This document shows positions 1 through 57,538 of a DNA stretch of 64,000 bases, piece by piece. The notes under the pieces are model-generated. The model was not told where the DNA came from, made no database searches, and saw nothing but the letters and a program-made list of their open reading frames with translations. Origin of the DNA: Kocuria turfanensis (GTDB lineage Bacteria > Actinomycetota > Actinomycetes > Actinomycetales > Micrococcaceae); NCBI RefSeq assembly GCF_001580365.1, contig NZ_CP014480.1, positions 2,605,008 through 2,669,007 on the forward strand, written 5' to 3'. The stretch's first letter is position 1. Every line of letters starts with the position of its first letter. The translations under genes and the position numbers were made by a program.

Positions 1-212
1 TCCTGGTGGCCGAACTGGTCGCAGGGGAATCCGAGCACCACGAAGCCCTCCTGCTTGAAGTCGCGCCACAGCTGCTCGAGGCCCTCGTACTGCGGCGTGA
101 ACCCGCACTGGCTGGCCGTGTTGACCACGAGCACCACCTTCCCGGCGTAGGCGGACAGCGGCTGCTCGCGCCCGTCCAGGGTGGTCGCGGTGAAGTCGTG
201 CAGTGTGGTCAT
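1..212 (-). CDS. Glutathione peroxidase family protein (N-terminal part)
   Basis: Thiol peroxidase of the GPx family, expected to reduce hydroperoxides in the cytoplasm. About 70 residues are visible before the window edge. They include the first active-site segment NTASQCGFTPQYEGLE and the second family block FPCDQFG. The catalytic position is an ordinary TGC cysteine, so this is a Cys-type GPx even though a selenocysteine system lies at the other end of the window. The start ATG has GGGAGG a few bases upstream. The gene runs off the left edge, so the C-terminal Gln/Trp residues cannot be checked. Confidence 0.9.
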   Translation of the reverse strand, partial: MTTLHDFTATTLDGREQPLSAYAGKVVLVVNTASQCGFTPQYEGLEQLWRDFKQEGFVVLGFPCDQFGHQ

Positions 213-288
213 GGGAGGCCTCCCGGGCGTTCGGCGACGACGGTCCGCTCCCATCATGCCCCCGGACCCCCGCCCCGTCCCCGGCCCC

Positions 289-347
289 GCGAGGTTGCGG
301 ACGTCGGCCACGCGGCCGGGCGCGGTGGCCGACGTCCGCAACCTCGC
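289..347. repeat. Dispersed 59-bp palindrome, copy 1
   Basis: An inverted repeat whose arms extend to 25 bp here (286-310 and 326-350) around a 15-nt GC-only loop. The 59-bp core is identical to the copy at 8446-8504. It lies just after the stop codon of the GntR gene and upstream of the peroxidase gene. It could act as a terminator or be a REP/MITE-like element. There is no T-tract. Confidence 0.85.
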
Positions 348-350
348 GGG

Positions 351-1073
351 TCAGCTCCGGGGGCCCCGCATGCGGGCGAGGAAGCGGAAGCGGTCGCCGC
401 GGAACACCGAGCGGGTCCACTCCATGGGGGAGCCGTCCGCCGTGAACCCGAGTCGGTGGATCAGCAGCAGGGGAGCTCCCATCTCGATGTCCAGGAGCCG
501 GACGTCGTCGGGACCGGCGAGCTGGGTCTCCACGGTGTCCTCCGCCTCGACGATTTCGATGCCGTAGTCCTCCCGCAGCGCGGTGTACAGGGACCCGGTC
601 CGGTCGAGGCGCTCCGCCAGGTCGGGCAAGGGGCCGGTGAGCAGGGCGATCTCGTGCGCCAGGGGCTCGCCGTTGATGAACCGGATCCGCTCGACCCGCG
701 CCAGCTCGGTGCCGGTGGGCACGCGGAGGCGGGCCGCGGCGTCGTCGTCGGCGGCCGTGCGGCTCACGCCGAGGACCCTCGAGGAGCTCGCGAGGCCCTG
801 GGCGGCCGCGTCGTCGCTGAACGAGGTCAGCTGGCGCACGTAGGTGAACCGCGGCGGGGCCACGAAGGTCCCGCGGCCCTGGGCCCTGCCCAGGACGCCC
901 TCGGCCACGAGCTCGCCGATGGCCTGGCGGACCGTGGTCCGGGAGGTGGCGTACTGCTCGGCGAGCGCACGCTCCGTGGGGATGAGCGTGCCGGGGGCCG
1001 CGTCTCGCACGAGCGCCCGGATCTGCTCCTTGAGCAGGTAGTACTTCGGGACGGTCCGCGGCTCCGCGCTCAT
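351..1073 (-). CDS. GntR/HutC-family regulator, DasR-like
   Basis: Transcription factor of 240 residues. The N-terminal winged helix-turn-helix spans about residues 10-75 (PTERALAEQYATSRTTVRQA). A UTRA effector domain follows, ending RFLARMRG. DasR/NagR members bind glucosamine-6-phosphate or GlcNAc-6-phosphate and repress amino-sugar uptake and nagA/nagB. The divergent operon here is exactly that set, and a dre-like palindrome sits in the shared promoter region, so that role is inferred. The start chosen is the ATG before SAEPRTVPKYY. The longer in-frame start would overlap the operator, and neither has a strong Shine-Dalgarno sequence. Confidence 0.88.
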   Translation of the reverse strand: MSAEPRTVPKYYLLKEQIRALVRDAAPGTLIPTERALAEQYATSRTTVRQAIGELVAEGVLGRAQGRGTFVAPPRFTYVRQLTSFSDDAAAQGLASSSRVLGVSRTAADDDAAARLRVPTGTELARVERIRFINGEPLAHEIALLTGPLPDLAERLDRTGSLYTALREDYGIEIVEAEDTVETQLAGPDDVRLLDIEMGAPLLLIHRLGFTADGSPMEWTRSVFRGDRFRFLARMRGPRS

Positions 1074-1134
1074 CGGGCCAGCATATCGGGCGGCTCGCCC
1101 GGCACTGCGGGGACCGGCTGCCCGGGTGTGACCA

Positions 1135-1160
1135 TTGACACCCAAATTGGTCTAGTCCAA
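1135..1160 (+). promoter_or_regulatory. Promoter -35 box and dre-like DasR operator
   Basis: TTGACA at 1135-1140 is a perfect -35 hexamer facing the binding-protein gene; no convincing -10 is visible. The near-palindrome TTGGTCTAGTCCAA at 1147-1160 matches the published DasR core TGGTCTAGACCA except for one base. It sits between the divergent regulator and transport genes, as expected for an operator controlling both. Confidence 0.65.
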
Positions 1161-1222
1161 GCTGGGGGCAGCGCAACCCGTGACAAAAGTGAACGGTGCG
1201 GCGAAGGGAAGGGGACATGCAC

Positions 1223-2560
1223 ATGAGTGCACGAACGAGGCGTCGATCGCGGGCCGTGGTCCTGGGGGCCGGTCTGTCGATGACCATGGTGCTGTCCGCC
1301 TGCGCGGGGGGCGGGGAGAGCGCCGCAGGTGACACGGAGGGTGACGGCGTCGTCGAGGTTTGGGCGCACAGTGGTCAGGCGGCCGAGGCCGAGGCGCTCG
1401 AGGCTCTGGTGGAGCAGTACAACGGTTCGCAGGAGGACGTCAGCGTCGAGCTGACCCTCATCCCGGAGGCGGACTACACCAGCACCGTCCAGGCGACCGC
1501 CGCGGAGGACCTGCCCGACGTGATGGAGATGGACGCCCCGACGATGGCGTCCTTCGTCTACGACCGCAAGCTCGTCCCCCTCGACGGCGTGGTCGCGCAG
1601 GAGACCCTCGACAACCGGATCGAGGGCGTGCGGGAGAGCGGGACGTACCAGGACCAGACCTACGCCGTCGGGATGTTCGACGTCGGTCTCGGGCTGTGGG
1701 GCAACCAGCAGCTGCTCGACGCCGCCGGTGTGGACGCTCCGGCAACCGCCGACGAGGCGTGGACGGCGGAGGAGTTCGAGCAGAACCTGCAGAAGCTGGC
1801 GGAGGCCAGCCCGTCGGGCAACGCGATCGACCTGGGGGAGGCCAACGGCTTCGCCGCCGAGTGGGGCACCTTCACCACCAGCCCGATCCTGTGGTCCAAC
1901 GGCGGCACGCTGATCCGGGACGGCGCCGCGGAGGGAGTGCTCAACAGCGCCGAGAACGTCGAGGCGATGGAGGAGTGGGCCTCCTGGAAGGAGCACACGG
2001 ACCCGAACACCAGCGGCACAGCCTTCCCCGACGGGGACGTCGCGCTGACGTGGACGGGCAACTGGATGTACCCCACGTTCAGCGAGGCCCTCGGTGAGGA
2101 CCTCGTGCTCATGCCCCTGCCGGACCTCGGCAACGGCACCAAGGCGGGCCACGGGTCCTGGCAGTGGGGTGTGACGCCGGCGGCCGGGGGAGACCAGGCC
2201 GCGGCCGGGGCCTTCCTCGACTTCCTGCACTCCGACGAGAGCATCGCCAGGATGGTCGAGGCCAACGCGGCGGTGCCCGGCACCACGAGCGCCCTCGAGG
2301 GCAGCGAGCTCTACGGCGCGGGTGGCCCGCTGGAACTGTTCGCGGACAACCTGGCCTCGGCCTGCGGCTCGGAGAACGTGACGCAGGAGTGCATCGCGGT
2401 GGCGCGGCCCATCACCCCGGGCTACCCCACGGTCACGAGCTCCTACGGCGGCGCGCTCGCGGCGATCTGGGGCGGGGCCGACCCCCAGGAGGAGCTCGAC
2501 CGGGCGGCCCGGGCCATCGACGCCGACTTCGAGGACAACAACGGTTACCAGGACGAGTGA
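1223..2560 (+). CDS. Sugar ABC transporter substrate-binding lipoprotein (amino-sugar type)
   Basis: Extracellular solute-binding protein of 445 residues, SBP family 1. It has an Arg-rich N-terminus, a hydrophobic signal and the lipobox LSAC, so it is probably a lipid-anchored receptor. The mature part has the usual two-lobe pattern (VEVWAHSG, DLPDVMEMDAPTMASF, the GNW motif). By context with a DasR-like regulator, nagA and nagB, the ligand is probably GlcNAc or chitobiose (DasA/NgcE role); this is inference. Two ATGs (1217, 1223) are close together. The second is preferred because AGGGG lies 8 nt before it. It is the first gene of the operon. Confidence 0.85.
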   Translation: MSARTRRRSRAVVLGAGLSMTMVLSACAGGGESAAGDTEGDGVVEVWAHSGQAAEAEALEALVEQYNGSQEDVSVELTLIPEADYTSTVQATAAEDLPDVMEMDAPTMASFVYDRKLVPLDGVVAQETLDNRIEGVRESGTYQDQTYAVGMFDVGLGLWGNQQLLDAAGVDAPATADEAWTAEEFEQNLQKLAEASPSGNAIDLGEANGFAAEWGTFTTSPILWSNGGTLIRDGAAEGVLNSAENVEAMEEWASWKEHTDPNTSGTAFPDGDVALTWTGNWMYPTFSEALGEDLVLMPLPDLGNGTKAGHGSWQWGVTPAAGGDQAAAGAFLDFLHSDESIARMVEANAAVPGTTSALEGSELYGAGGPLELFADNLASACGSENVTQECIAVARPITPGYPTVTSSYGGALAAIWGGADPQEELDRAARAIDADFEDNNGYQDE

Positions 2561-2564
2561 TCCA

Positions 2565-2595
2565 CGCGGCGGGGCCGCCCGTCGGCCCCGCCGCG
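2565..2595 (+). terminator. Intercistronic hairpin after binding-protein gene
   Basis: A perfect 12-bp GC stem (2565-2576 with 2584-2595) around a 7-nt loop begins five bases after the binding-protein stop codon. Such stems between receptor and permease genes usually attenuate transcription or protect the upstream mRNA, giving excess receptor. No T-run follows. Confidence 0.6.
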
Positions 2596-2614
2596 CACGT
2601 GCGAGGAGTGCACC

Positions 2615-3598
2615 ATGACCACCACACCGGGCCTCGCGGCCCCACCGTCCCCCGTGCCCGCCCCGGCGGGCCCGGGCGGAGCGGCGCCCCGGAGGGGACT
2701 CCGGCGGGACAACCTGGCCGGGCCCCTGATGGCGGGTCCCGCCGTCCTGTTGCTCGTCCTCTTCGTCGCGGTCCCGTTCTTCGCGGCCGTCGGTTTCTCC
2801 TTCTACAACGTCCGACTCGGAGACCCGCGCGACCCCGCCTTCATGGGGCTGACCCAGTACGCCCGGATCTTCACCGACCCCGACGTGTCCGGCCGCTTCC
2901 TCAGCGCCCTGCTCCACAACCTGGTGTTCGCGGCCGTGGTTGTCCCGGTGCAGACCGCCCTGGCACTCGCCCTGGCCATGCTCGTGCAGAAGAGCGTGCC
3001 CGGGATCGGGATCTTCCGCTCGGTCTTCTTCCTCCCCGTGGTCTTCCCCATCGCTCTGGTGGCGCTGATCTGGCGGCTGATCCTCGCCCGCGGGGACGAC
3101 GGCCTGCTGAACTCCCTCCTCGCGTTCTTCTCGGGCGGGAACTTCGGTGCCCAGGACTGGCTGGGCTCGGAGCTCACGGCGCTGGCCTCGGTCATCGTCC
3201 TGTCCATCTGGCAGGGCGTCGGCTTCCAGATGGTCATCCTGCTGGCGGCCCTGCAGCAGGTGCCGGCCGATCTCTACGAGGCGGCCCGCCTCGACCGGGC
3301 CAACGGGTGGCAGCGGTTCGTGCACGTCACCCTGCCCGGGATCAACACGACCCTCGTCTTCGTGGCGCTGTACACGATGATCCTGTCCCTGCGCGTGTTC
3401 GACCAGATCTACGTCCTGGCGCGCTCCGGCGGCGGGCTCAACGAGGACGCCACCCGCACCGTGATGTACGAGGCCGTGACCTCCGCCTTCGACGAGAACA
3501 ACATCGGGCGTGCGAGCGCCATCTCGGTGGTGTTCTTCGTGATCGTGGTGGTCCTGTCCCTGATCCAGCGCCGCGCCACTCGCGAACGGGAGGACTGA
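2615..3598 (+). CDS. Sugar ABC transporter permease, MalF type
   Basis: Inner-membrane permease of 327 residues with a Pro/Gly/Ala-rich cytoplasmic N-terminus and about six membrane segments. The BPD_transp_1 EAA loop is visible near residue 220 (ADLYEAARLDRANGWQRF, then P-G). That loop contacts the ATPase. GAGGAG lies before the ATG. It pairs with the next permease to form the channel for the binding protein upstream. No ATP-binding subunit is encoded here, so a shared ATPase such as MsiK must serve it from elsewhere (known for this transporter class; inferred here). Confidence 0.9.
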   Translation: MTTTPGLAAPPSPVPAPAGPGGAAPRRGLRRDNLAGPLMAGPAVLLLVLFVAVPFFAAVGFSFYNVRLGDPRDPAFMGLTQYARIFTDPDVSGRFLSALLHNLVFAAVVVPVQTALALALAMLVQKSVPGIGIFRSVFFLPVVFPIALVALIWRLILARGDDGLLNSLLAFFSGGNFGAQDWLGSELTALASVIVLSIWQGVGFQMVILLAALQQVPADLYEAARLDRANGWQRFVHVTLPGINTTLVFVALYTMILSLRVFDQIYVLARSGGGLNEDATRTVMYEAVTSAFDENNIGRASAISVVFFVIVVVLSLIQRRATRERED

Positions 3599-3599
3599 C

Positions 3600-4463
3600 A
3601 TGACGCAGAACGGACCCGCTGCCTCCACCGGGCGCCGGCGCCGGCCGGACGCAGCCCGCTACGCGGCGCTCGTCGTCACCGGCGTCCTCTTCCTGGCGCC
3701 GGTAGCCTACATGGCCGCTGCCTCTCTGGCCCCGGCCTCGAAGACCCTGGCGGGCTTCGAGGTGTTCGACCCCCGCAGGTGGGGGCTGCACAACTACACC
3801 GGGGTCTTCGCGAGCCTGTCCTCGGACAGCACGGGGCACCTGTGGCGGTTCTTCTTCGTGTCCTTCACGGTCACCGTCTCCGTGGTCGGGCTCGGTCTGG
3901 TGGTCAACTCGATGGCGGCCTTCGCGCTGTCACGGCTGCGCTGGGCGGGCAAGAACCTGGTGCTGCTCGGGATTCTGCTGCTGCTGATCGTGCCGTTCGA
4001 AGCCGTGGCCGTCCCGATGTTCTACCTCTACAACGACGCCCGGAACACGCTGTGGATCCAGATCGTGCCCTTCGTGGGCAACGCGCTGTCCATCTTCCTG
4101 TTCTACTCGTTCTTCTCCGGCATCCCCCGCAGCATCGACGAGGCCGCCCGGATGGACGGGGCGGGACCCCTGCGGGTGTTCTGGCAGATCATCGCGCCCA
4201 TGAGCAAGCCCGCCTACGCATCGGTGGCGGTGCTGACCTTCCTCACGCAGTGGGGCTCGTTCCTGTGGCCGGTCCTGATGATCTCCGAACCCGACCTGCG
4301 GCCACTGCCGCTGCAGATCAGCGTCTTCGCGGGCCAGCTGCCCCCGGCCTGGGGCCAGGTGATGGCCTTCGGCGTGCTGCTGGTCGTGCCCGTCGTCATC
4401 GTGTTCCTCGCCTTCCAGCGGTGGTTCATCGAGGGCGTGGCCAGTTCGGCCGTCAAGGGCTGA
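3600..4463 (+). CDS. Sugar ABC transporter permease, MalG type
   Basis: Inner-membrane permease of 287 residues, partner of the preceding MalF-type subunit, which stops 1 nt before this start. Six membrane helices are apparent. The EAA motif is IDEAARMDGAGPLRVFWQI near residue 180, followed by a tail ending AVKG, typical of MalG-like subunits. GGAGG of the upstream gene's last codons serves as ribosome-binding site, so translation is probably coupled. Substrate assignment (amino sugar) rests on neighbouring nagB and nagA. Confidence 0.9.
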   Translation: MTQNGPAASTGRRRRPDAARYAALVVTGVLFLAPVAYMAAASLAPASKTLAGFEVFDPRRWGLHNYTGVFASLSSDSTGHLWRFFFVSFTVTVSVVGLGLVVNSMAAFALSRLRWAGKNLVLLGILLLLIVPFEAVAVPMFYLYNDARNTLWIQIVPFVGNALSIFLFYSFFSGIPRSIDEAARMDGAGPLRVFWQIIAPMSKPAYASVAVLTFLTQWGSFLWPVLMISEPDLRPLPLQISVFAGQLPPAWGQVMAFGVLLVVPVVIVFLAFQRWFIEGVASSAVKG

Positions 4464-4499
4464 ACCGGCCTGTCCCGCCCATCACCGGAAGGAGTCCCC

Positions 4500-5288
4500 A
4501 TGGAAGTGATCGTCCTGCCGACGGCCGCCGACGTCGACGTCCGCGCGGCCGACCTCGTCGCCGAGCAGGTGGTGCACCGGCCGGACACCGTGCTCGGTGT
4601 GGCCACGGGCTCGTCCCCGCTCGGCACCTACCGCGAACTGGCCCGCCGACAGACGGAGGGGTCGCTGGACCTCTCGAAGCTCCTGTGCTTCGCGCTGGAC
4701 GAGTACGTCGGTCTGCCGGCGTCTGACCCGGCCGCCTATGCCGAGGTCCTCGGCCGCGAGGTCGCCGGCCCGTTCGGCCTGCCGCCCTCCCGCGTGCGGG
4801 TGCCCGACGGCTCCCGCCGGGACCTCGAGCAGGCCTGCCGGGACTACGAGGAGGCCATCGGCGCAGCAGGTGGGATCGACCTCCAGCTCCTCGGCATCGG
4901 GGCCAACGGCCACATCGGCTTCAACGAGCCGACCTCCTCACTGTCCTCCCGCACGCGGGTCAAGGCGCTGTCCGCCCGGACCCGGGCCGACAACGCCCGG
5001 TTCTTCGACGACCCCGCCGACGTCCCCTCCCACTGCGTCACCCAGGGGCTCGGCACCATCCTCGAGGCCCGGCAGGTGCTCCTGGTCGCCCAGGGGAAGC
5101 GCAAGGCCGCCGCCGTGGCCGCCGCCGTGGAGGGCCCGGTGGCGGCCATGTGCCCGGCGTCCGTGCTGCAGCTCCACCGCAGCGTCACCGTGGTGATGGA
5201 CGAGGCGGCGGCCGGCGACCTCGCCCTGATCGACTACTACCGCTTCGTGGCCGAGGCGAAGCACCGGCTGCGACAGGAGGACGCATGA
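4500..5288 (+). CDS. nagB: Glucosamine-6-phosphate deaminase
   Basis: Converts glucosamine-6-phosphate to fructose-6-phosphate and ammonia in the cytoplasm, the last step in feeding GlcNAc into glycolysis. The 262-residue length fits the NagB family. Visible blocks are the N-terminal ATGSSPLGTY phosphate loop, CFALDEYVGL with the catalytic Asp, and GIGANGHIGFNEP with the active-site His/Glu region. GGAGT precedes the ATG. The stop overlaps the start of the next gene (ATGA), indicating translational coupling in the amino-sugar operon. Confidence 0.95.
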   Translation: MEVIVLPTAADVDVRAADLVAEQVVHRPDTVLGVATGSSPLGTYRELARRQTEGSLDLSKLLCFALDEYVGLPASDPAAYAEVLGREVAGPFGLPPSRVRVPDGSRRDLEQACRDYEEAIGAAGGIDLQLLGIGANGHIGFNEPTSSLSSRTRVKALSARTRADNARFFDDPADVPSHCVTQGLGTILEARQVLLVAQGKRKAAAVAAAVEGPVAAMCPASVLQLHRSVTVVMDEAAAGDLALIDYYRFVAEAKHRLRQEDA

Positions 5289-6271
5289 CGTTCCGCCTCG
5301 CAGACCACTGGGTCTGGGACAGCTGGGTGGCCGACGACGGGCAGGACTACCACCTGTTCTTCCTGCGGGCCAGCCGGGCCCTGCGGGATCCCGACAAGCG
5401 TCACCACCGGGCCTCGATCGGGCACGCCATGTCACCGGACCTGCGGACGTGGACCCTGCTGCCCGACGCCCTCGTGGCTGGGGACGAGCCGTCCTGGGAC
5501 GACCTTGCCACCTGGACGGGCAGCACCGTCCGCGGCCACGACGGCCGGTGGCACCTGTTCTACACCGGCGTCAGCCGCGCCGAGGGCGGACTGCATCAGC
5601 GCATCGGCTCCGCCGTCTCCGACGACCTGCTCGTCTGGGAACGTACCACCGCAGGACCGCTCGAGGCAGACCCCCGTTGGTACGAGAAGCTCGGGCAGGG
5701 CACCTGGTCCGACGAAGCATGGCGTGACCCGTTCGTCTTCTACGACGACGACACCCGCCGGTGGCAGATGCTCGTCACCGCACGGGCCGCCACCGGAGAC
5801 CCGGCAGCCCGCGCAGTGGTCGGCCACGCCGTGAGCGACGACCTGGAGCACTGGTCCGTCCGCCCCCCGCTGAGCCGACCCGCGGGCTTCGGCGAGATGG
5901 AAGTCATCCAGTCCCACAACGTGGACGGCGAAGGCGTGCTGATCTTCTCCTGCCTCCCGCACCTGGCCCCCGGCATCCCCTTCTCGGAGACGAGCACGGG
6001 GACCTGGATCGCACCCGGTGCCGGCCGGCTCGGGCCGTGGGAGCTCGAACGGAGCTCCAGCTTCTTCCTCCCGGGCGTCTACGCCGCCCAGCTGTTCCGC
6101 CAGCGCGACGGCCAGTGGGTCGTCTTCGGCTTCCAGAACAGCGTGGACGGGCGTTTCGTCGGGGAGATCGCCGACCCCGTACCGCTGGCAGACCTCCTGA
6201 CCGTGGACCGTCGCTTCCTCCTGCACCACCAAACACCCACATCCACCCCCTCCACGAGGAGTACGACATGA
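5285..6271 (+). CDS. GH32/GH68-fold (five-bladed propeller) glycosidase-like protein
   Basis: Cytoplasmic protein of 328 residues, no signal peptide. It shows the three acidic signatures of the GH32/68/43 propeller clan: WVWDSW near residue 9 (nucleophile position), WRDPFVF near residue 150 (RDP motif) and FGEMEV near residue 204 (acid/base position). The substrate is not evident. Sitting between nagB and a secreted enzyme in an amino-sugar operon, it may act on an imported oligosaccharide or sugar derivative; this is inference. It overlaps nagB and the next gene by 4 nt at each end, so it is firmly part of the operon. Confidence 0.7.
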   Translation: MTFRLADHWVWDSWVADDGQDYHLFFLRASRALRDPDKRHHRASIGHAMSPDLRTWTLLPDALVAGDEPSWDDLATWTGSTVRGHDGRWHLFYTGVSRAEGGLHQRIGSAVSDDLLVWERTTAGPLEADPRWYEKLGQGTWSDEAWRDPFVFYDDDTRRWQMLVTARAATGDPAARAVVGHAVSDDLEHWSVRPPLSRPAGFGEMEVIQSHNVDGEGVLIFSCLPHLAPGIPFSETSTGTWIAPGAGRLGPWELERSSSFFLPGVYAAQLFRQRDGQWVVFGFQNSVDGRFVGEIADPVPLADLLTVDRRFLLHHQTPTSTPSTRSTT

Positions 6272-7155
6272 TCAAGGAACTGATGGCCACGGGCTCCGCG
6301 GCCGCACTGCTGGTGACCGCCGGCGTGCTCGGCGCGGCCCCCGCTGCGGCGGCCCCGGGCAAGGCCCCGGACCGGAGCACCGACCTGCGCGTCATGTCCT
6401 TCAACATCCACCACGGCGCGGACAGCGGCGACGTGCTCGACCTCGAGCGCACCGCGGCCGTCATCGAGGCGTCGGGCGCCGAGGTGATCGGACTGCAGGA
6501 GGTCGACAACGCCTGGTCCTCCCGCAGCGACTTCGAGGACCAGACCGCCCGTCTGGCCGACATCCTCGACATGCACTACGTGTACGGCCCGAATCTGGAC
6601 CTCGCCCGCTCCGACGGCGGAGCCGGGAACAGCCAGTACGGCAACGCCATCCTCAGCGAGTACCCGATCATCGACTCCGAGAACCACCTGCTGACCAGCA
6701 TCGAGTACCCGGAGCTGCCCACCGAGCAGCGCGGCCTGCTGGAGGCGGTGATCAACGTGAAGGGCCACCACGTCGGCTTCTACAGCACCCACCTCGACCA
6801 CCAGCGCGCCGAGCAGCGTGAGCTGCAGGCCCAGGAGATCGTGGAGATCACCGGGCAGAGCCGGCGCCCGGCGGTGGTCGTCGGGGACCTCAACGCCGAG
6901 CCCGGCGCCCCGGAGCTGCAGGGCCTCTTCGCAGCGTTCACGGACACCTTCGCGGCCCTGGGCCAGGACGACGACCACACCTTCGCCCCGGACGGGGCCC
7001 CGGTCGAGGACGCGAGCCTGCGCATCGACTACGTCCTGGTGTCGGAGGGCGTGCGGCTGAGGGCCGCGCACGTGGTGCCCACATCGGCGTCGGACCACCT
7101 GCCGATCGTGGTGGACCTCGAGATCCCACGGTCCCCGAACGGACAGGTCCGGTAG
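6268..7155 (+). CDS. Secreted endonuclease/exonuclease/phosphatase (EEP) family protein
   Basis: Metal-dependent phosphoesterase fold, 295 residues. A signal peptide (hydrophobic stretch LLVTAGVLG, then Ala-rich APAAAAPG) ends near residue 32, so the enzyme is probably exported. Family motifs: MSFNIHHG near 42, GLQEVDN (metal-binding Glu), STHLDHQ, GDLNAEPG and the C-terminal SDHLPIVVDL (catalytic His). Members cleave DNA, phosphoinositides or sphingomyelin; the substrate here cannot be told. CGAGGAG precedes the start and the gene overlaps its neighbour by ATGA. Its place between nagB and nagA is unusual. Confidence 0.85.
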   Translation: MIKELMATGSAAALLVTAGVLGAAPAAAAPGKAPDRSTDLRVMSFNIHHGADSGDVLDLERTAAVIEASGAEVIGLQEVDNAWSSRSDFEDQTARLADILDMHYVYGPNLDLARSDGGAGNSQYGNAILSEYPIIDSENHLLTSIEYPELPTEQRGLLEAVINVKGHHVGFYSTHLDHQRAEQRELQAQEIVEITGQSRRPAVVVGDLNAEPGAPELQGLFAAFTDTFAALGQDDDHTFAPDGAPVEDASLRIDYVLVSEGVRLRAAHVVPTSASDHLPIVVDLEIPRSPNGQVR

Positions 7156-7196
7156 GACCGGCCACGTCCCACGTCCGCACCAGCACAAGGAGGCAC

Positions 7197-8426
7197 ATGG
7201 CTGCCGAGGACTCCCCGCGCAGAACGGTCCTCTCGGGCCGCGTGCACACCGGGTACGCCGCGCACGAGGACGGTCTCGTAGTCGTCGAGGACGGCCGCGT
7301 CCACTACGCGGGGCCGCGATCGGGCCACCCCGGCGGCGGCCCGGGGGAGCGCCGCGTCCTGGCGCCCGGGCAGACGGTCCTGCCCGGGCTCGTGGACGTG
7401 CACTGCCACGGCGGCTTCGGGGCGGACTTCTCCTCCTCGGCGGAAGGACCGATCCGTGCCACCCTCGGCTCCTTCCACCGCCAGGGCACGACGACGCTGG
7501 TGGCGAGCCTGGTCACCGCCTCGCGCGAGGACCTGCTGAGCGCCGCGCCACGGCTGGCGGCGCTCACCGAGGAGGGGCTGGTCGCCGGCATCCACCTCGA
7601 GGGCCCGTTCCTGTCCACGGCTCGGTGCGGGGCGCAGGATCCCGCCTGGATGCGGGAGCCGGACCTCGCTCTGGCGGCCGAACTCGTCGACGCCGCGGCG
7701 GGAACGCTCCGCACCATGACCTTCGCCCCGGAGCTGCCCGGCTCCCGCGAGCTGGCCGAACTGCTCGTCGCCCGCGGTGTGGTCCCCTCGCTGGGCCACA
7801 CCGACGCGGACACGGGGACGACCGACGCGGCGCTGCGCCACCTGGAGGCCCTGCTGAGCGCCGTCCCCGGCGGCGGCGCGCCGCGGGTGCCCACGGTCAC
7901 CCACCTGTTCAACGCCATGCCCGTGATCCATCACCGCGCGCCCGGGCCGGTGCCGGCCTGTCTGCGCGCCGCGGCGGAGGGCCGGGCCGTCGTCGAGCTC
8001 ATCGGGGACGGCACCCATCTGGACCCCTTCATCGTCGCGTGGGCGTTCCAGCTCGCGGGCGCGGACAACATCGCGCTGGTGACCGACGCGATGGCCGCCA
8101 CCGGGCTCTCGGACGGCACGTATACGTTGGGCGCGGCCGAGGTGCGGGTCCAGGACGGTGTGGCTTCGCTGGTCTCCAACGGCTCGATCGCCGGTGGCAC
8201 GGCCACGATGCTCGACGTGCTCCGGCAAACGGTCGCCGCAGGAGTGTCCTTCGACGATGCGCTGCGCTCGGCGACCGTGGTCCCGGCCCGTGTCCTGGGC
8301 CTGTCCGGCGAGGTCGGGAGCCTCCGGGCGGGGGCGCTCGCGGATCTTCTGGTCGTCGGGCAGGACCTCGAACTGAGCGCCGTGATGCGTCGGGGGGAGT
8401 GGCTCCCCACAGGGCCGCCCCACTGA
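7197..8426 (+). CDS. nagA: N-acetylglucosamine-6-phosphate deacetylase
   Basis: Removes acetate from GlcNAc-6-phosphate, giving the substrate of NagB. The protein has 409 residues of the amidohydrolase superfamily: LPGLVDVHCHGGFG (metal His pair) near residue 62, GIHLEGPFLS near 130, SLGHTDAD near 200, THLFNAM near 235 and the catalytic Asp in LVTDAMAATG near 295. The ribosome-binding site AAGGAGG is optimal. It is the last gene of the operon; the 59-bp palindrome follows 20 bp after its stop. Confidence 0.95.
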   Translation: MAAEDSPRRTVLSGRVHTGYAAHEDGLVVVEDGRVHYAGPRSGHPGGGPGERRVLAPGQTVLPGLVDVHCHGGFGADFSSSAEGPIRATLGSFHRQGTTTLVASLVTASREDLLSAAPRLAALTEEGLVAGIHLEGPFLSTARCGAQDPAWMREPDLALAAELVDAAAGTLRTMTFAPELPGSRELAELLVARGVVPSLGHTDADTGTTDAALRHLEALLSAVPGGGAPRVPTVTHLFNAMPVIHHRAPGPVPACLRAAAEGRAVVELIGDGTHLDPFIVAWAFQLAGADNIALVTDAMAATGLSDGTYTLGAAEVRVQDGVASLVSNGSIAGGTATMLDVLRQTVAAGVSFDDALRSATVVPARVLGLSGEVGSLRAGALADLLVVGQDLELSAVMRRGEWLPTGPPH

Positions 8427-8445
8427 TGCCGGGTCCGAACAGGCC

Positions 8446-8504
8446 GCGAGGTTGCGGACGTCGGCCACGCGGCCGGGCGCGGTGGCCGACGTCCGCAACC
8501 TCGC
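8446..8504. repeat. Dispersed 59-bp palindrome, copy 2
   Basis: Identical over 59 bp to 289-347, including the 15-nt loop. The stem is 23 bp here (8445-8467 with 8483-8505). It follows the last gene of the amino-sugar operon, so together the two copies bracket that unit. A hairpin this stable after nagA would be expected to stop or slow transcription. Confidence 0.85.
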
Positions 8505-8511
8505 GACCCGA

Positions 8512-8540
8512 GGGGGAGGAGGGGGAGGAGGGGGGAGGGG
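8512..8540 (+). other. G-quadruplex-capable G tract
   Basis: G runs of 5, 5, 6 and 4 bases separated by 1-4 nt follow the palindrome directly, with two further G3-G4 runs to 8559. It lies on the coding strand about 90 nt before the VOC gene. Confidence 0.6.
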
Positions 8541-8629
8541 AGCGACGGGGACGGGTGGGTAACGATCCTCGGGCGGGGCGGTCAGGGGGCGCGGGGCCCG
8601 GCGTACCCTGACCGTGTCGGAAGGAGCCC

Positions 8630-9409
8630 ATGATGACGCAGCACACCGAACCGTGGCCTGCGGGAACGCCCTGCTGGGCGGACCTCGTCGCCTCCGACCT
8701 GGCCCGGACGCAGGAGTTCTACCGGCAGGTCCTCGGCTGGCAGTACGACGACCCGCAGCCCGAGCACGGCGGCTACTGCAACGCCCTCGTGGACGGGGCG
8801 CCCGTGGCCGGGCTGTCGCCCGCGGACCCGGACCGGGCCGGTGCGCCCCCCGTGTGGCAGGTGTACCTGGCCGCGGACCGGCTCGAGCTGTGCGCGCAGC
8901 GGGTCCTGGACGCCGGGGGCACGCAGCTGACGGGTCCCACGGAGGTCGGCGCGCTCGGCCGGATGGGCCTCTGGCGGGACCCCGCCGGAGCCGTCTTCGG
9001 GATGTGGCAGTCCGGTGCGCACACCGGCTTCGCGGCCGTCGACGTCCCCGGCGCCGTGGTGTGGTGCGACCTCACGACGCCCGACCACCACACCACCCGG
9101 GACTTCTACGCGACGGTGTTCGGCTACCACTACGAGGAGACCGGCGGGGAGGGCGTCCCCTACGCCACGTTCACGGTGCCGCGGGGGGACCGCCCGGCGG
9201 GCGGGATCGGCGGGACGGACCCCGCCGCGCAGGACGCGCCCTCGGTCTGGTCCGTGTGCTTCCAGGTGGAGGGCGTCGACGCGGCCGCGGAGCGCGTGCG
9301 CGCCGCCGGCGGATCGGTCGTGGAGGAGCCGTTCGACTTCCCCTACGGGCGGCTCGCGGTGGTGGCGGGCCCGGACCGGGAGTCCTTCGCGCTCATGGCG
9401 CCGGGATAG
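8630..9409 (+). CDS. VOC (glyoxalase/bleomycin-resistance fold) protein, Cfp30B-like
   Basis: Two tandem vicinal-oxygen-chelate domains, about residues 14-125 and 140-259, in a 259-residue protein. Each begins with a PCWADL/WCDL strand followed by a TREFY helix motif, the layout of the mycobacterial 27-30 kDa antigen Cfp30B family. Enzymatic activity is not established for these. AAGGAG lies 4 nt before ATGATG, and TACCCT at 8604-8609 is a possible -10. It stands alone between the amino-sugar unit and cstA. Confidence 0.8.
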   Translation: MMTQHTEPWPAGTPCWADLVASDLARTQEFYRQVLGWQYDDPQPEHGGYCNALVDGAPVAGLSPADPDRAGAPPVWQVYLAADRLELCAQRVLDAGGTQLTGPTEVGALGRMGLWRDPAGAVFGMWQSGAHTGFAAVDVPGAVVWCDLTTPDHHTTRDFYATVFGYHYEETGGEGVPYATFTVPRGDRPAGGIGGTDPAAQDAPSVWSVCFQVEGVDAAAERVRAAGGSVVEEPFDFPYGRLAVVAGPDRESFALMAPG

Positions 9410-9496
9410 CGCCCCGTCCTGGAGGGGTGGTGGGACGGCGGTAGCATTGTGACCCAGCAGACATCCACCGCCACTTCCGCAGAGATAGGGAGCGAG

Positions 9497-11203
9497 ATGA
9501 ACTCCATCGTCCTCGCCGTCGTCGGTGTGGCCATGATGATCCTCGGGTATCTCCTGTACTCGAAGTTCGTGGCCCGCCGGATCTACAAGCTCCAGGACTC
9601 CTTCGTCACCCCGGCCCACGAGCTGGGCGACGGTGTGGACTACGTCCCCACCAACAAGTACGTGCTGTGGGGCCACCACTTCACCTCCGTGGCCGGGGCC
9701 GCGCCCATCGTGGGGCCGGCCATCGCGGTGATCTGGGGATGGGTGCCCGCCTTCCTCTGGGTGACCCTCGGCACCGTCTTCTTCGCCGGCGTCCACGACC
9801 TCGGGGCCCTGTGGGCGTCCAACCGGCACCAGGGCAAGTCCATCGGGTCGCTGTCCGGGAAGTACATCGGCCACCGGGGACGGAACCTGTTCCTGGTCGT
9901 GATCTTCCTCGTGCTGCTCATGGTCAACGCCGCGTTCGCCGTGGTGATCTCCAACCTGCTGGTCGGCACGCCCACCTCGGTGATCCCGACGTGGGGCGCC
10001 ATCGTCGTGGCGCTGCTCATCGGCCAGGCGGTCTACCGCTACCGGTGGAACCTCGCCGTCGTGTCCGTGGTGGGCGTCGTGGCCCTCTACGCCCTGATCC
10101 TGCTCGGCGACCGCTTCCCGGTGGTCCTGCCGGAGACGGTCCTGGGCCTGCCGGCCAACGCGTTCTGGATCGTGGTGCTCTTCGTCTACGCGGGCATCGC
10201 GTCCGTGCTGCCCGTCTGGATGCTCCTGCAGCCCCGCGACTACATCAACGGCCTGCAGCTGTTCATCGCCCTGGGCATCCTCTACGGCGCGGTGCTGATC
10301 TCCGCCCCGACCGTGGTGGCCCCGGCCTTCAACGAGTCCGTGCCCGCGGGCACACCCAGCATCGTGCCCCTGCTGTTCGTGACCATCGCGTGCGGTGCGA
10401 TCTCCGGGTTCCACGGCATCGTGGCCTCGGGGACGTCCTCCAAGCAGCTGGACAAGGAGACGGACGCCCGCTTCGTCGGCTACTTCGGCGCCGTCGGCGA
10501 GGGCCTGCTGGCGCTGGGCGCGATCATCGCCACGACCGCCGGCTTCCGCACGATCGCCGACTGGGAGGCCGTGTACAGCGCGTTCGGCCAGGGCGGCGTG
10601 GCCGCGTTCGTCCAGGGCGGCGCCTCGGTCGTCAACTCCGGCCTGGGCATCCCCCCGTCGCTGAGCGCGACCATCCTCGCGACGATGGCCGTGCTGTTCG
10701 CGGCCACCACCATGGACACCGGCATCCGCCTGCAGCGCTTCGTGGTGCAGGAGGCCGGGCACATCATGGGCGTCACCATCGGCAAGGTGGTCGCCACCCT
10801 GATCGTCCTCGCGGTGGCCATGGGGCTGACCTTCAGCGCCGGTGCGGACGGCTCCGGCGGCATGCTCATCTGGCCGCTGTTCGGCACCTCGAACCAGCTG
10901 CTGGCCGGCCTGACGCTGTCCATGATCGCGGTGATCCTGCTGCGCAAGGGCCGCCCGGTCCTGCCCGTGCTGGTGCCGCTGGTGTTCCTGCTCGTGATGT
11001 CCGTCTACGCGCTGATCGTGCAGCTGGGGCAGTTCTGGGCCGCGGAGAACTGGTTCCTGCTCGTGCTCGACGTGATCATCCTGATCGCGGCCGTGTGGGT
11101 GATCTTCGAGTCCGCGATCGCGATGTCCCAGGCCCGGAAGAACCCGCCGGAGCTCGACGAGGAGCCGCTGCCCAGCACGGCCGGGCGGGACCGCTCCCTG
11201 TGA
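9497..11203 (+). CDS. cstA: CstA family carbon-starvation transporter
   Basis: Integral membrane protein of 568 residues with many hydrophobic helices and CstA blocks: GHHFTSVAGAAPIVGPAIAV near residue 60, FSGFHG-like SGFHGIVASGTSSKQ near 310 and ATTMDTGIRLQR near 405. CstA proteins import peptides or pyruvate during carbon limitation. The ATG before NSIVLAVVG is preferred over a GTG 48 nt upstream because GGGAGCGAG precedes it and TAGCAT (9442-9447), a likely -10, would fall around the GTG. The usual YbdD/DUF466 partner is not present next to it. Confidence 0.88.
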   Translation: MNSIVLAVVGVAMMILGYLLYSKFVARRIYKLQDSFVTPAHELGDGVDYVPTNKYVLWGHHFTSVAGAAPIVGPAIAVIWGWVPAFLWVTLGTVFFAGVHDLGALWASNRHQGKSIGSLSGKYIGHRGRNLFLVVIFLVLLMVNAAFAVVISNLLVGTPTSVIPTWGAIVVALLIGQAVYRYRWNLAVVSVVGVVALYALILLGDRFPVVLPETVLGLPANAFWIVVLFVYAGIASVLPVWMLLQPRDYINGLQLFIALGILYGAVLISAPTVVAPAFNESVPAGTPSIVPLLFVTIACGAISGFHGIVASGTSSKQLDKETDARFVGYFGAVGEGLLALGAIIATTAGFRTIADWEAVYSAFGQGGVAAFVQGGASVVNSGLGIPPSLSATILATMAVLFAATTMDTGIRLQRFVVQEAGHIMGVTIGKVVATLIVLAVAMGLTFSAGADGSGGMLIWPLFGTSNQLLAGLTLSMIAVILLRKGRPVLPVLVPLVFLLVMSVYALIVQLGQFWAAENWFLLVLDVIILIAAVWVIFESAIAMSQARKNPPELDEEPLPSTAGRDRSL

Positions 11204-11207
11204 GCCG

Positions 11208-11483
11208 GTGAGCCTCCCGGAGCGGTGGCGCACCGCGCGGGCCCGCCTCGGGGCGGGCCTGCGCGAGTTCTACGCGGCCCCCTACCGCCGGACCTTCGCC
11301 CGCGCCCAGCGCGACGAGGAGGACCTGTTCATGATGCTGGTGCTCTCCGAGGCGCTCGGGGTGCCCAACCCCGCCAGCTACTACACCGTGGAGCTGCTCC
11401 CCGTGGTCTACGACCGGTTCCACGACTGGCACCGGCGGATGGGCATGGAGCGCTCGCCCCTGGAGCACATCTCATGCTGCTAG
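11208..11483 (+). CDS. Small CC-terminal protein (cory-CC-star type)
   Basis: A 91-residue, Arg- and aromatic-rich protein starting with GTG 5 nt after cstA and ending in Cys-Cys at the C-terminus (HISCC). That ending and the gene order with an ArsA-like ATPase match the uncharacterised actinobacterial family I recall as cory-CC-star. No signal peptide or membrane segment is seen. The last 10 nt overlap the ATPase start, so the two are translationally coupled. The terminal Cys pair suggests metal binding, redox or lipidation; none is shown by the sequence. Confidence 0.7.
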
Positions 11484-12499
11484 AGCTCGCCGCGACCCGC
11501 CGGGTCCTGTTCGTGGGCGGCAAGGGCGGCGTCGGCAAGACCGCCGTCGCCTCCGCCACGGCCCTCGCCCAGGCCCGGGCCGGCCGCCGGGTGCTCGTGG
11601 TCTCGACCGACCCCGCGCACAACCTCGGGCACCTCTGGGAACGCCCGGTGGGGGACCGGATCACCCCGCTGGTCCGGGTTCCCGGCGGCGGCCTGCTCGA
11701 CGGGATCGAGGTGGACCCGCTCGCCACGACCGAGGACCACCTCGCCGCCGTGGGCGCCACCGTCCGCCGGCTCATGCCCGAGCACCTCGCCGGGGAGGTC
11801 GACAAGCACATGCGGCTCGCCCGCGACTCGCCCGGCACCCACGAGTCCGCCGTCCTGGAGCGGGTCGCCGAGCTGGTGGAGACGGGCCTGGAGGACTACG
11901 ACCTCGTGGTCTTCGACACCGCGCCCTCCGGGCACACCGCCCGCCTCATGGCCCTGCCGGAGATCATGTCCGCCTGGACCGAGGGCCTGCTGCGGCGCCG
12001 GGTCCGGGCGGAGCGGTTCGGCGCCGCGCTGCGCGGGCTCGAGGACCGCGACGACGCGGGCGAGAGCATCGTGGGCACCGAGCGCCCCCGGGACCCCCGG
12101 GAGGAGCGCGACCTCGAGATCCGGCGCGTCCTGCTGCGCCGGCGCGCCCGCTTCGAGGCGCTGCGCGAGGTCCTGGTGGATCCCCGGCGCTGCGCCTTCG
12201 TGATCGTCCTGGCCGCCGAGCGGCTGCCCGTGCTGGAGACGGTCGAGCTGCACGGGCAGCTGGTCCGCGCCGGGGTGCACGTGGGGGCGCTGGTGGTCAA
12301 CAAGCGCTCCCCGGCCGACGCCGGGGCCTTCCTCGCCGAGCGTCGCGCCCTCGAGGAGACGCACGTGGCGACCCTGCGCGAGGCGCTGCCGGACCTGCCG
12401 CTGCTGCAGGTCCCGCTGCTGCCGGGGGACGTGGTGGGCGAGGAGGCGCTCGAACGGTTCGCGGCGGCGCTCGCCCAGGCGGGGCACAGGGCCGGCTGA
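11474..12499 (+). CDS. ArsA/GET3-family ATPase
   Basis: Soluble P-loop ATPase of 341 residues. Deviant Walker [13 protein letters not shown] near residue 14, switch region [12 protein letters not shown] near 45, and [11 protein letters not shown] near 150 (A-loop/switch II). No arsenite-binding Cys triad is apparent, and there is no arsenic gene nearby, so this is not assigned to arsenite export. Actinobacterial relatives are of unknown role. The start ATG lies inside the upstream CC-terminal gene, suggesting a two-component unit perhaps handling a membrane or metal client. Confidence 0.82.
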
Positions 12500-38775: not shown

Positions 38776-38810
38776 GTCCCGTCCCGGCGCGCGGGGCGCC
38801 GGGACGGGAC
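38776..38810 (-). terminator. Strong hairpin between ppsA and ppsR
   Basis: A perfect 15-bp stem, 38776-38790 with 38796-38810, starting 3 bases after the ppsA stop codon. It should reduce read-through into ppsR or stabilise the ppsA message. Confidence 0.7.
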
Positions 38811-57408: not shown

Positions 57409-57448
57409 CGCCAGCGGAAACAGAAGCTGGCGGAAACAGAAGCTGGCG
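57409..57448 (-). repeat. 16-bp tandem repeat and hairpin behind tRNA-Sec
   Basis: CGGAAACAGAAGCTGG occurs twice head to tail (57415-57430, 57431-57446); the second copy contains the encoded CCA end of the tRNA. CGCCAGC (57409-57415) pairs with GCTGGCG (57426-57432), so a stem can form between the tRNA and selA. It may be a processing or termination signal. Confidence 0.65.
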
Positions 57449-57538
57449 GAGGCGGACGGGAATCGAACCCGCCAGACCGAGGTGCTCGGTCTCACCGGTT
57501 TTGAAGACCGGGGGGCCCACCAGGACCCGGACGCCTCC
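57444..57538 (-). tRNA. selC: tRNA-Sec, anticodon TCA
   Basis: A 95-nt tRNA with all marks of selenocysteine tRNA: 6-bp D stem (GGGTCC/GGGCCC, 4-nt loop), anticodon loop CTTCAAA with TCA, 7-bp long variable arm (AGACCGA/TCGGTCT), T loop TTCGATT and an encoded GCCA end. Acceptor plus T helix totals 13 bp, but reads most simply as 7+6 with an unpaired T8, rather than the usual bacterial 8+5. It is charged with serine, then converted by SelA just downstream. Confidence 0.95.

Follow-up and report, generated by a model that had tools for sequence, protein, structure and literature searches.

This report concerns two identical palindromes in a 64-kb stretch of the Kocuria turfanensis genome (G000), referred to below as the window, which lies within a 3.74-Mb contig of a five-contig assembly. 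A plasmid contig of this assembly matches Kocuria rosea plasmids at 88% identity over 15 kb. The palindromes bracket an amino-sugar unit in which a minus-strand regulator gene (gntR) and a plus-strand series of genes ending in nagA are each followed, at the 3' end, by one palindrome copy. The features are as follows.

286..350: palindrome copy 1 (nagL), a 26-bp perfect stem with a 13-nt loop, 3' of gntR (covariance model R1, E = 5.7e-16)
351..1145, minus strand: GntR/UTRA regulator (Pfam PF00392, PF07702)
1196..2560, plus strand: ABC transporter solute-binding protein (PF13416)
2615..3598, plus strand: ABC permease (PF00528)
3600..4463, plus strand: ABC permease (PF00528)
4500..5288, plus strand: NagB-like glucosamine-6-phosphate isomerase family protein (PF01182)
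5285..6271, plus strand: GH32/GH43-like glycosidase (PF00251, PF04616)
6349..7155, plus strand: endonuclease/exonuclease/phosphatase-fold protein (PF03372)
7197..8426, plus strand: NagA-like amidohydrolase (PF01979)
8444..8505: palindrome copy 2 (nagR), the identical 62 bp, 3' of nagA (covariance model R1, E = 5.7e-16)

The initial annotation had described two palindromes, identical with their loops and 8.1 kb apart, each just past the outermost stop codon of the unit. Both observations were confirmed, with the identity extending over 62 bp rather than 59 (positions 287-348 and 8444-8505; 8157 bp start to start). Copy 1 is located 2 nt from the stop codon of gntR on the minus strand and upstream of a glutathione-peroxidase-like gene that we take to be gpx, and copy 2 is located 18 nt from the plus-strand stop codon of nagA and upstream of a glyoxalase-family gene. 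The stem of copy 1 is fully paired over 26 bp (arms 286-311 and 325-350), and that of copy 2 comprises 24 perfect bp inside a 27-nt arm that is 96% complementary, also with a 13-nt loop. Their folding as RNA is far better than that of shuffled sequences (z = -5.65 and -6.43), and they are the only perfect stems of at least 20 bp with loops of 3-16 nt in the window, the next longest being 17, 15, 13 and 12 bp. A search of the window with a 23-nt arm, allowing up to three mismatches, returned the four palindrome arms alone (expected number of matches, 0.00). When the two copies are aligned in direct register their identity ends at the palindrome edges and the flanks differ; in inverted register the match runs on into the flanks, C-rich beside copy 1 and G-rich beside copy 2, to reach 91 nt at 77% complementarity, which may be an effect of composition only. 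Comparison with Rfam gave a single sub-threshold microRNA match in positions 1-12000 of the window (26.6 bits against a gathering threshold of 90).

The initial annotation had proposed that a BLASTN search would distinguish a repeat family from a feature private to this locus. Run with the 62-mer, this search recovered both exact copies from G000 along with two palindromes that are full-length but degenerate, as well as further copies in congeners, above all G013 and G003. A covariance model built from 14 copies then placed matches at 14 distinct sites in G000 at E-values up to 1, of which we accepted 11 (E up to 3.4e-4). We rejected the sites at 1418478 (E = 0.003) and 3618671 (E = 0.15), which fall inside called genes, together with the site at 906000 (E = 1.0); BLAST matches near 1747 and 2763 kb were left out as non-palindromic by eye. 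Across four genomes there are at least 39 accepted loci (11 in G000, 12 in G013, 5 in G003 and 11 in G016), and these counts are lower bounds, as 150 candidates were scored per genome (150 of 26731 in G000). To judge from flanks and loops, two of the G013 loci seem to be divided between a pair of contig ends each. The 37 intact copies are 54-62 bp long, 61 bp in most cases. The nag hairpins are therefore not private to the amino-sugar unit. They belong to a low-copy, dispersed family of hairpins of approximately 61 bp that lie just 3' of stop codons.

The family appears to be narrowly distributed. While 13 of the 27 genomes of the genus contain a covariance-model match at E-values up to 0.01, only the four named above yielded accepted sets, and the model found no convincing set of family hairpins in the other 23 congeners. 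A match in G008 (contig C12, E = 5e-7) was dropped for its different arm sequence, as were weak matches in eight other congeners (E = 4.5e-4 to 0.009). Among 197 genomes drawn from the wider bacterial family, a draw that lists 12 other congeners and seems to lack G003, G013 and G016, matches at E = 1e-4 were confined to G000 and two genomes of another genus, G186 and G200. The G186 hairpin (L260, around position 1500) resembles a bidirectional terminator, flanked by an A run on one side and a T run on the other and having a stem core similar to the family arm, and was not counted as a member. The 62-mer matched 33 plasmid records, of which two were covered over at least 80% of its length (77-80% identity, E = 0.4); among the best 20 of the 33 the lowest E-value was 9e-3, and 14 lay in annotated genes. 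It also matched 294 phage records, none over 80% of its length, and the best 20 of the 294 were all in helicase genes. An 18-nt arm pattern matched once in each of 73 stretches of a species-genome collection, which may leave out genomes near G000, and hence formed no exact two-arm palindrome there.

Placement with respect to neighbouring genes is tight. At all 11 loci in G000, a gene reading into the hairpin has its stop codon no more than 30 nt away, whereas 6.1% of random intergenic 61-mers in the window fall within that distance. Across the four genomes the facing stop codon is within 31 nt at 33 of the 39 loci, within 60 nt at 38, and within 81 nt at all 39, the distance for nagA in G003 being taken from an alignment. 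At three loci the stop codon is located inside a hairpin arm. The genes so served share no common function as judged by Pfam; their products include an ILVD/EDD dehydratase, adenylosuccinate synthetase, an isochorismatase-family protein, a chorismate-binding/aminotransferase fusion, an M13 peptidase, a sortase, and a His_biosynth protein that is presumably HisF.

Some of these loci have noteworthy surroundings. Near 1719 kb in G000, one palindrome has a SAM-IV riboswitch in its neighbourhood (L198:2341-2455) and, on the opposite strand, a weaker match to a SAM riboswitch (3920-4023); these were the two riboswitch matches in an Rfam search of 12 loci that returned nothing at any palindrome itself. 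Near 2406 kb there is a close pair of palindromes, whose equivalent in G013 (L154:3131-3397) is a pair approximately 420-450 bp apart that flanks an MT0933-like antitoxin gene (PF14013). This stretch is conserved in the four species, G003 lacking the palindrome on one side. We had considered an RNA gene between the close pair; Rfam gave no match, and the antitoxin gene occupies the equivalent position in G013.

Pairing between the arms is maintained through two-sided changes. In an alignment of the 37 intact copies, with 36 distinct rows, 87.4% of cells are paired. The covariation score of 0.249 compares with a mean of 0.128 in shuffles and no more than 0.064 when the partners are slid, and two-sided changes occur in 88 cells, compared with 46 in shuffles. 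Not every copy is near-perfect: the two arms agree at between 13 and 22 of 22 positions, or 87% on average. The placement of the hairpins together with their pairing points to a role as hairpins at RNA 3' ends. Twelve columns are invariant across the 37 copies, which could instead mean that the arm motif is under selection as the site of a DNA-binding protein, either a chromosome organiser or a regulator. The copies also lean toward the origin: all five in G003, whose sequence starts at dnaA, are within 942 kb of that gene, and 9 of 11 in G000 are within 623 kb of an origin that we positioned manually by synteny. We did not locate dnaA in G000, as the stretch tried (2480-2499 kb, our first guess at the origin) gave no match to the G003 origin region. 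However, this origin test was post hoc (Kolmogorov-Smirnov p = 0.007 with 11 copies, 0.04 with 9 loci). A 17-nt arm pattern allowing two mismatches matched G000 at 20 sites against 5 for a reversed control, several of the matches being family arms, and the tight placement past stop codons is easier to reconcile with a role at RNA 3' ends. We therefore think a protein-binding function decidedly unlikely.

Comparison of flanking sequences suggests that most hairpins were inherited, since 11 of 16 positions are common to two to four species: nagR to four, nagL to three, and nine further positions to between two and four. Five loci are each present in one species only. One of these is at the 3' end of the hisF-like gene, where G000 alone has approximately 95 extra nucleotides, containing the palindrome, directly after the TGA. 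The site is empty in five relatives (G003, G013, G016, G014 and G021), and G008 has other extra sequence there. The hairpin at this gene is a lineage-specific gain. At the isochorismatase-family gene, where G000 has the family palindrome, inspection by eye suggests that a different GC-rich inverted repeat takes its place in G003, G016 and G013. A third site, at a permease gene, has a palindrome in G013, an apparent single-arm remnant in G000, and a tight stop-start overlap in G003 and G016; we had considered it as a second clean gain and dropped it, as the remnant makes loss equally likely. From these comparisons, both gain and loss of the hairpin seem to occur.

The same comparisons bear on whether the nag palindromes are recombination boundaries of a transferable amino-sugar cassette, one of the readings offered in the initial annotation. 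Direct 62-bp repeats around an 8.1-kb unit are what such a cassette might be expected to show, and a possible parallel is found on G013 contig C11 (L156:2428-3654), where a 1.2-kb stretch carries a 325-aa gene, with no Pfam match at E = 1e-4, and a second palindrome where G000 and G016 have one. This stretch may record gene gain or loss next to a palindrome. However, the nag unit occupies the same place, with gpx and cstA as neighbours, in all four hairpin-bearing species. In the gntR-gpx spacer of G003 apparently only the outer end of the palindrome is left, while the unit is retained. Conversely, in 14 kb fetched from G021, nagA adjoins gpx, the rest of the unit including the transporter genes is absent, and the covariance model finds no accepted palindrome. 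In none of these genomes were the unit and both repeats seen to be gained or lost together. As 9 of the 11 G000 copies are elsewhere in the genome, seven of them alone at other genes, a cassette boundary is very improbable.

We next consider how the two nag copies came to be identical. In G000 the two do not differ at any base, yet they match their best orthologues at only 84% and 82% and any copy in another genome at no more than 85%. Since the pair is identical and the orthologues differ, one copy probably overwrote the other after the species diverged from its relatives. The G013 nag pair is likewise closer to itself (90%) than to its orthologues (84% and 79%), the nagA-side copy of G003 has the same 13-nt loop as a copy near 3882 kb, and two G013 copies on different contigs are alike at all arm bases and differ in their loops. 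These likenesses suggest that copying between loci is likely at some sites; it is not seen at others. An alternative is that the identity of the nag copies is an assembly error at hairpins that are hard to sequence. Four G013 contig ends (C3, C18, C11 and C42) do fall at family palindromes, and the paired ends look like palindrome halves. However, the window is part of a multi-megabase contig, the flanks of the two copies differ in direct register, and the other nine G000 copies all differ in sequence, which makes such an error extremely improbable. The suggestion in the initial annotation that the perfect identity reflects a mobile or gene-converted hairpin is supported by the 11 loci in G000, the gain at the hisF-like gene, and the identical pair with its differing orthologues.

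The annotation had also likened the palindromes to repetitive extragenic palindromic (REP) elements or miniature inverted-repeat transposable elements (MITEs). The likeness to REPs of the GTAG and CGTC superfamilies extends to dispersal and placement: these are described as dispersed extragenic palindromes downstream of coding regions, mostly between tandem or convergent genes (PMC3733652, in part), and all 39 loci here lie close to a facing stop codon. It does not extend to length, copy number or associated transposase. REPs are given as 20-40 bp in the same source, shorter than the hairpins here, and are present in high copy number, compared with at least 5 to 12 accepted loci per genome; no unpaired GTAG or CGTC tag was seen by eye in the 15-nt flanks. 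The Y1 tyrosine transposase domain (PF01797) of the REP-associated tyrosine transposases (RAYTs) that accompany GTAG types was found in none of the 27 genomes of the genus, which argues against RAYT-driven spread. On the basis of size, copy number and the lack of this domain we do not file the family as REP, although REP is the nearest known kind. A transposase-mobilised miniature element of either the REP or the MITE type, in which a trans-acting transposase copies the hairpin to gene ends, would account for the dispersed copies, the gain at the hisF-like gene, the REP-like placement, and the ending of identity at the palindrome edge. However, PF01797 was detected in 5 of 14 control genomes and in none of the congeners (other transposases were not searched systematically), the hisF-like site has no clear target duplication by eye, and the positions common to several species imply that movement is rare. 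We consider this explanation unlikely.

Other known systems are similar in part. In GC-rich actinobacteria, stem-loop 3' ends without a U run are described as possible I-shaped terminators or as possible ends of Rho-terminated transcripts (PMC8269248 and PMC12288462, each in part), and the two window copies are of this form, with a strong stem within approximately 50 bp of a stop codon and no U-tract; these I-shaped, or HS-U-lack, ends differ in that the family hairpins share sequence across unrelated loci. A study of 13 genomes places predicted termination hairpins near stop codons and has a section headed to the effect that poly A/U trails are not necessary (PMC8355165, in part). The nag stems, at 24-26 bp, are longer than the other perfect gene-end stems of at least 12 bp in the window, which are 13 and 15 bp (2565-2595 and 38776-38810) and likewise have no U-tract, so that U-less stems may be usual in this genome. 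DNA uptake sequences in inverted pairs at gene ends, possible terminators themselves (PMC2267715, in part), also share a motif between hairpins; in contrast, our 20 genome-wide matches to the 17-mer indicate no abundant single-arm repeat. Finally, template switching is a route by which stems arise and have their pairing restored (PMC8794818, in part), and it resembles the present case in its two-sided changes and matching arms. Within-hairpin switching alone does not yield copies at separate loci that are more alike than orthologues, and between-locus copying needs conversion or transposition as well. Among the papers listed by searches of the open-access literature, we found none describing this hairpin family.

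Our best reading of these sequence comparisons is that the palindromes form a low-copy, REP-like family of 3'-end hairpins without U-tracts, each serving its own gene and patchily homogenised. Each hairpin would most likely act in RNA as a strong, orientation-independent 3'-end structure for the gene reading into it, either as a terminator that needs no U-tract or as a stem that halts 3' exonucleases once Rho has terminated transcription. Of the nag pair, copy 1 would act for the gntR transcript and copy 2 for the nag operon, such that the pair would mark two gene ends rather than the two ends of one cassette. The family appears to spread rarely to new gene ends and to be lost by deletion, with some copies probably overwriting others, and copying between loci could proceed by template switching or short-tract gene conversion.

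Several results weigh against this reading. A canonical intrinsic terminator needs a U-tract as well as a GC-rich stem, and there is none past either nag copy: the 10 nt after the stem contain no T in the reading direction of gntR or nagA, and at most three on the other strand. The proposal of a terminator in the initial annotation is accordingly borne out in placement and not in this second element. A terminator pattern scan of the window, which permits loops of 3-8 nt only, lists neither copy. Mycobacterial RNA polymerase reportedly needs a U-tract for termination, according to the title of a referenced paper. The 6.1% background for random intergenic 61-mers comes from a rough gene caller that misses real genes of the window, and it may be an underestimate. 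Pairs showing two-sided changes, 11 in all, do not exceed the 10.3 of shuffles, and the insertion at the hisF-like gene is not unusually well folded as DNA (z = 0.75). Homogenisation is also patchy: among the 31 testable copies, which are the 37 minus six without a usable orthologue, the nearest copy is from the same genome in only 15, the orthologue in 13, and tied in three. Moreover, the nagL copy of G013 matches a copy at a different locus of G003 just as closely (90%) as it matches its own partner.

A bolder version, which we put forward tentatively and hold to be doubtful, is a self-propagating terminator. Here, a hairpin family without a dedicated transposase would seed new gene 3' ends, replace ordinary hairpins and overwrite its sister copies, through template switching during replication or short-tract conversion between hairpins kilobases apart. 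If true, bacterial terminators could evolve in concert like a repeat family. The origin of intergenic hairpins and their perfect pairing are usually discussed one locus at a time. In the four close species examined here, copies that are orthologous, gained, lost and apparently overwritten make it possible to trace origin, symmetry repair, inter-locus copying and loss. The lineage also yielded no match to the transposase domain invoked to explain the spread of REPs. The nag locus further cautions against taking identical repeats on both sides of a gene unit as proof of a mobile cassette. Elsewhere in the window, a tRNA-Sec gene is predicted at positions 57444-57538.

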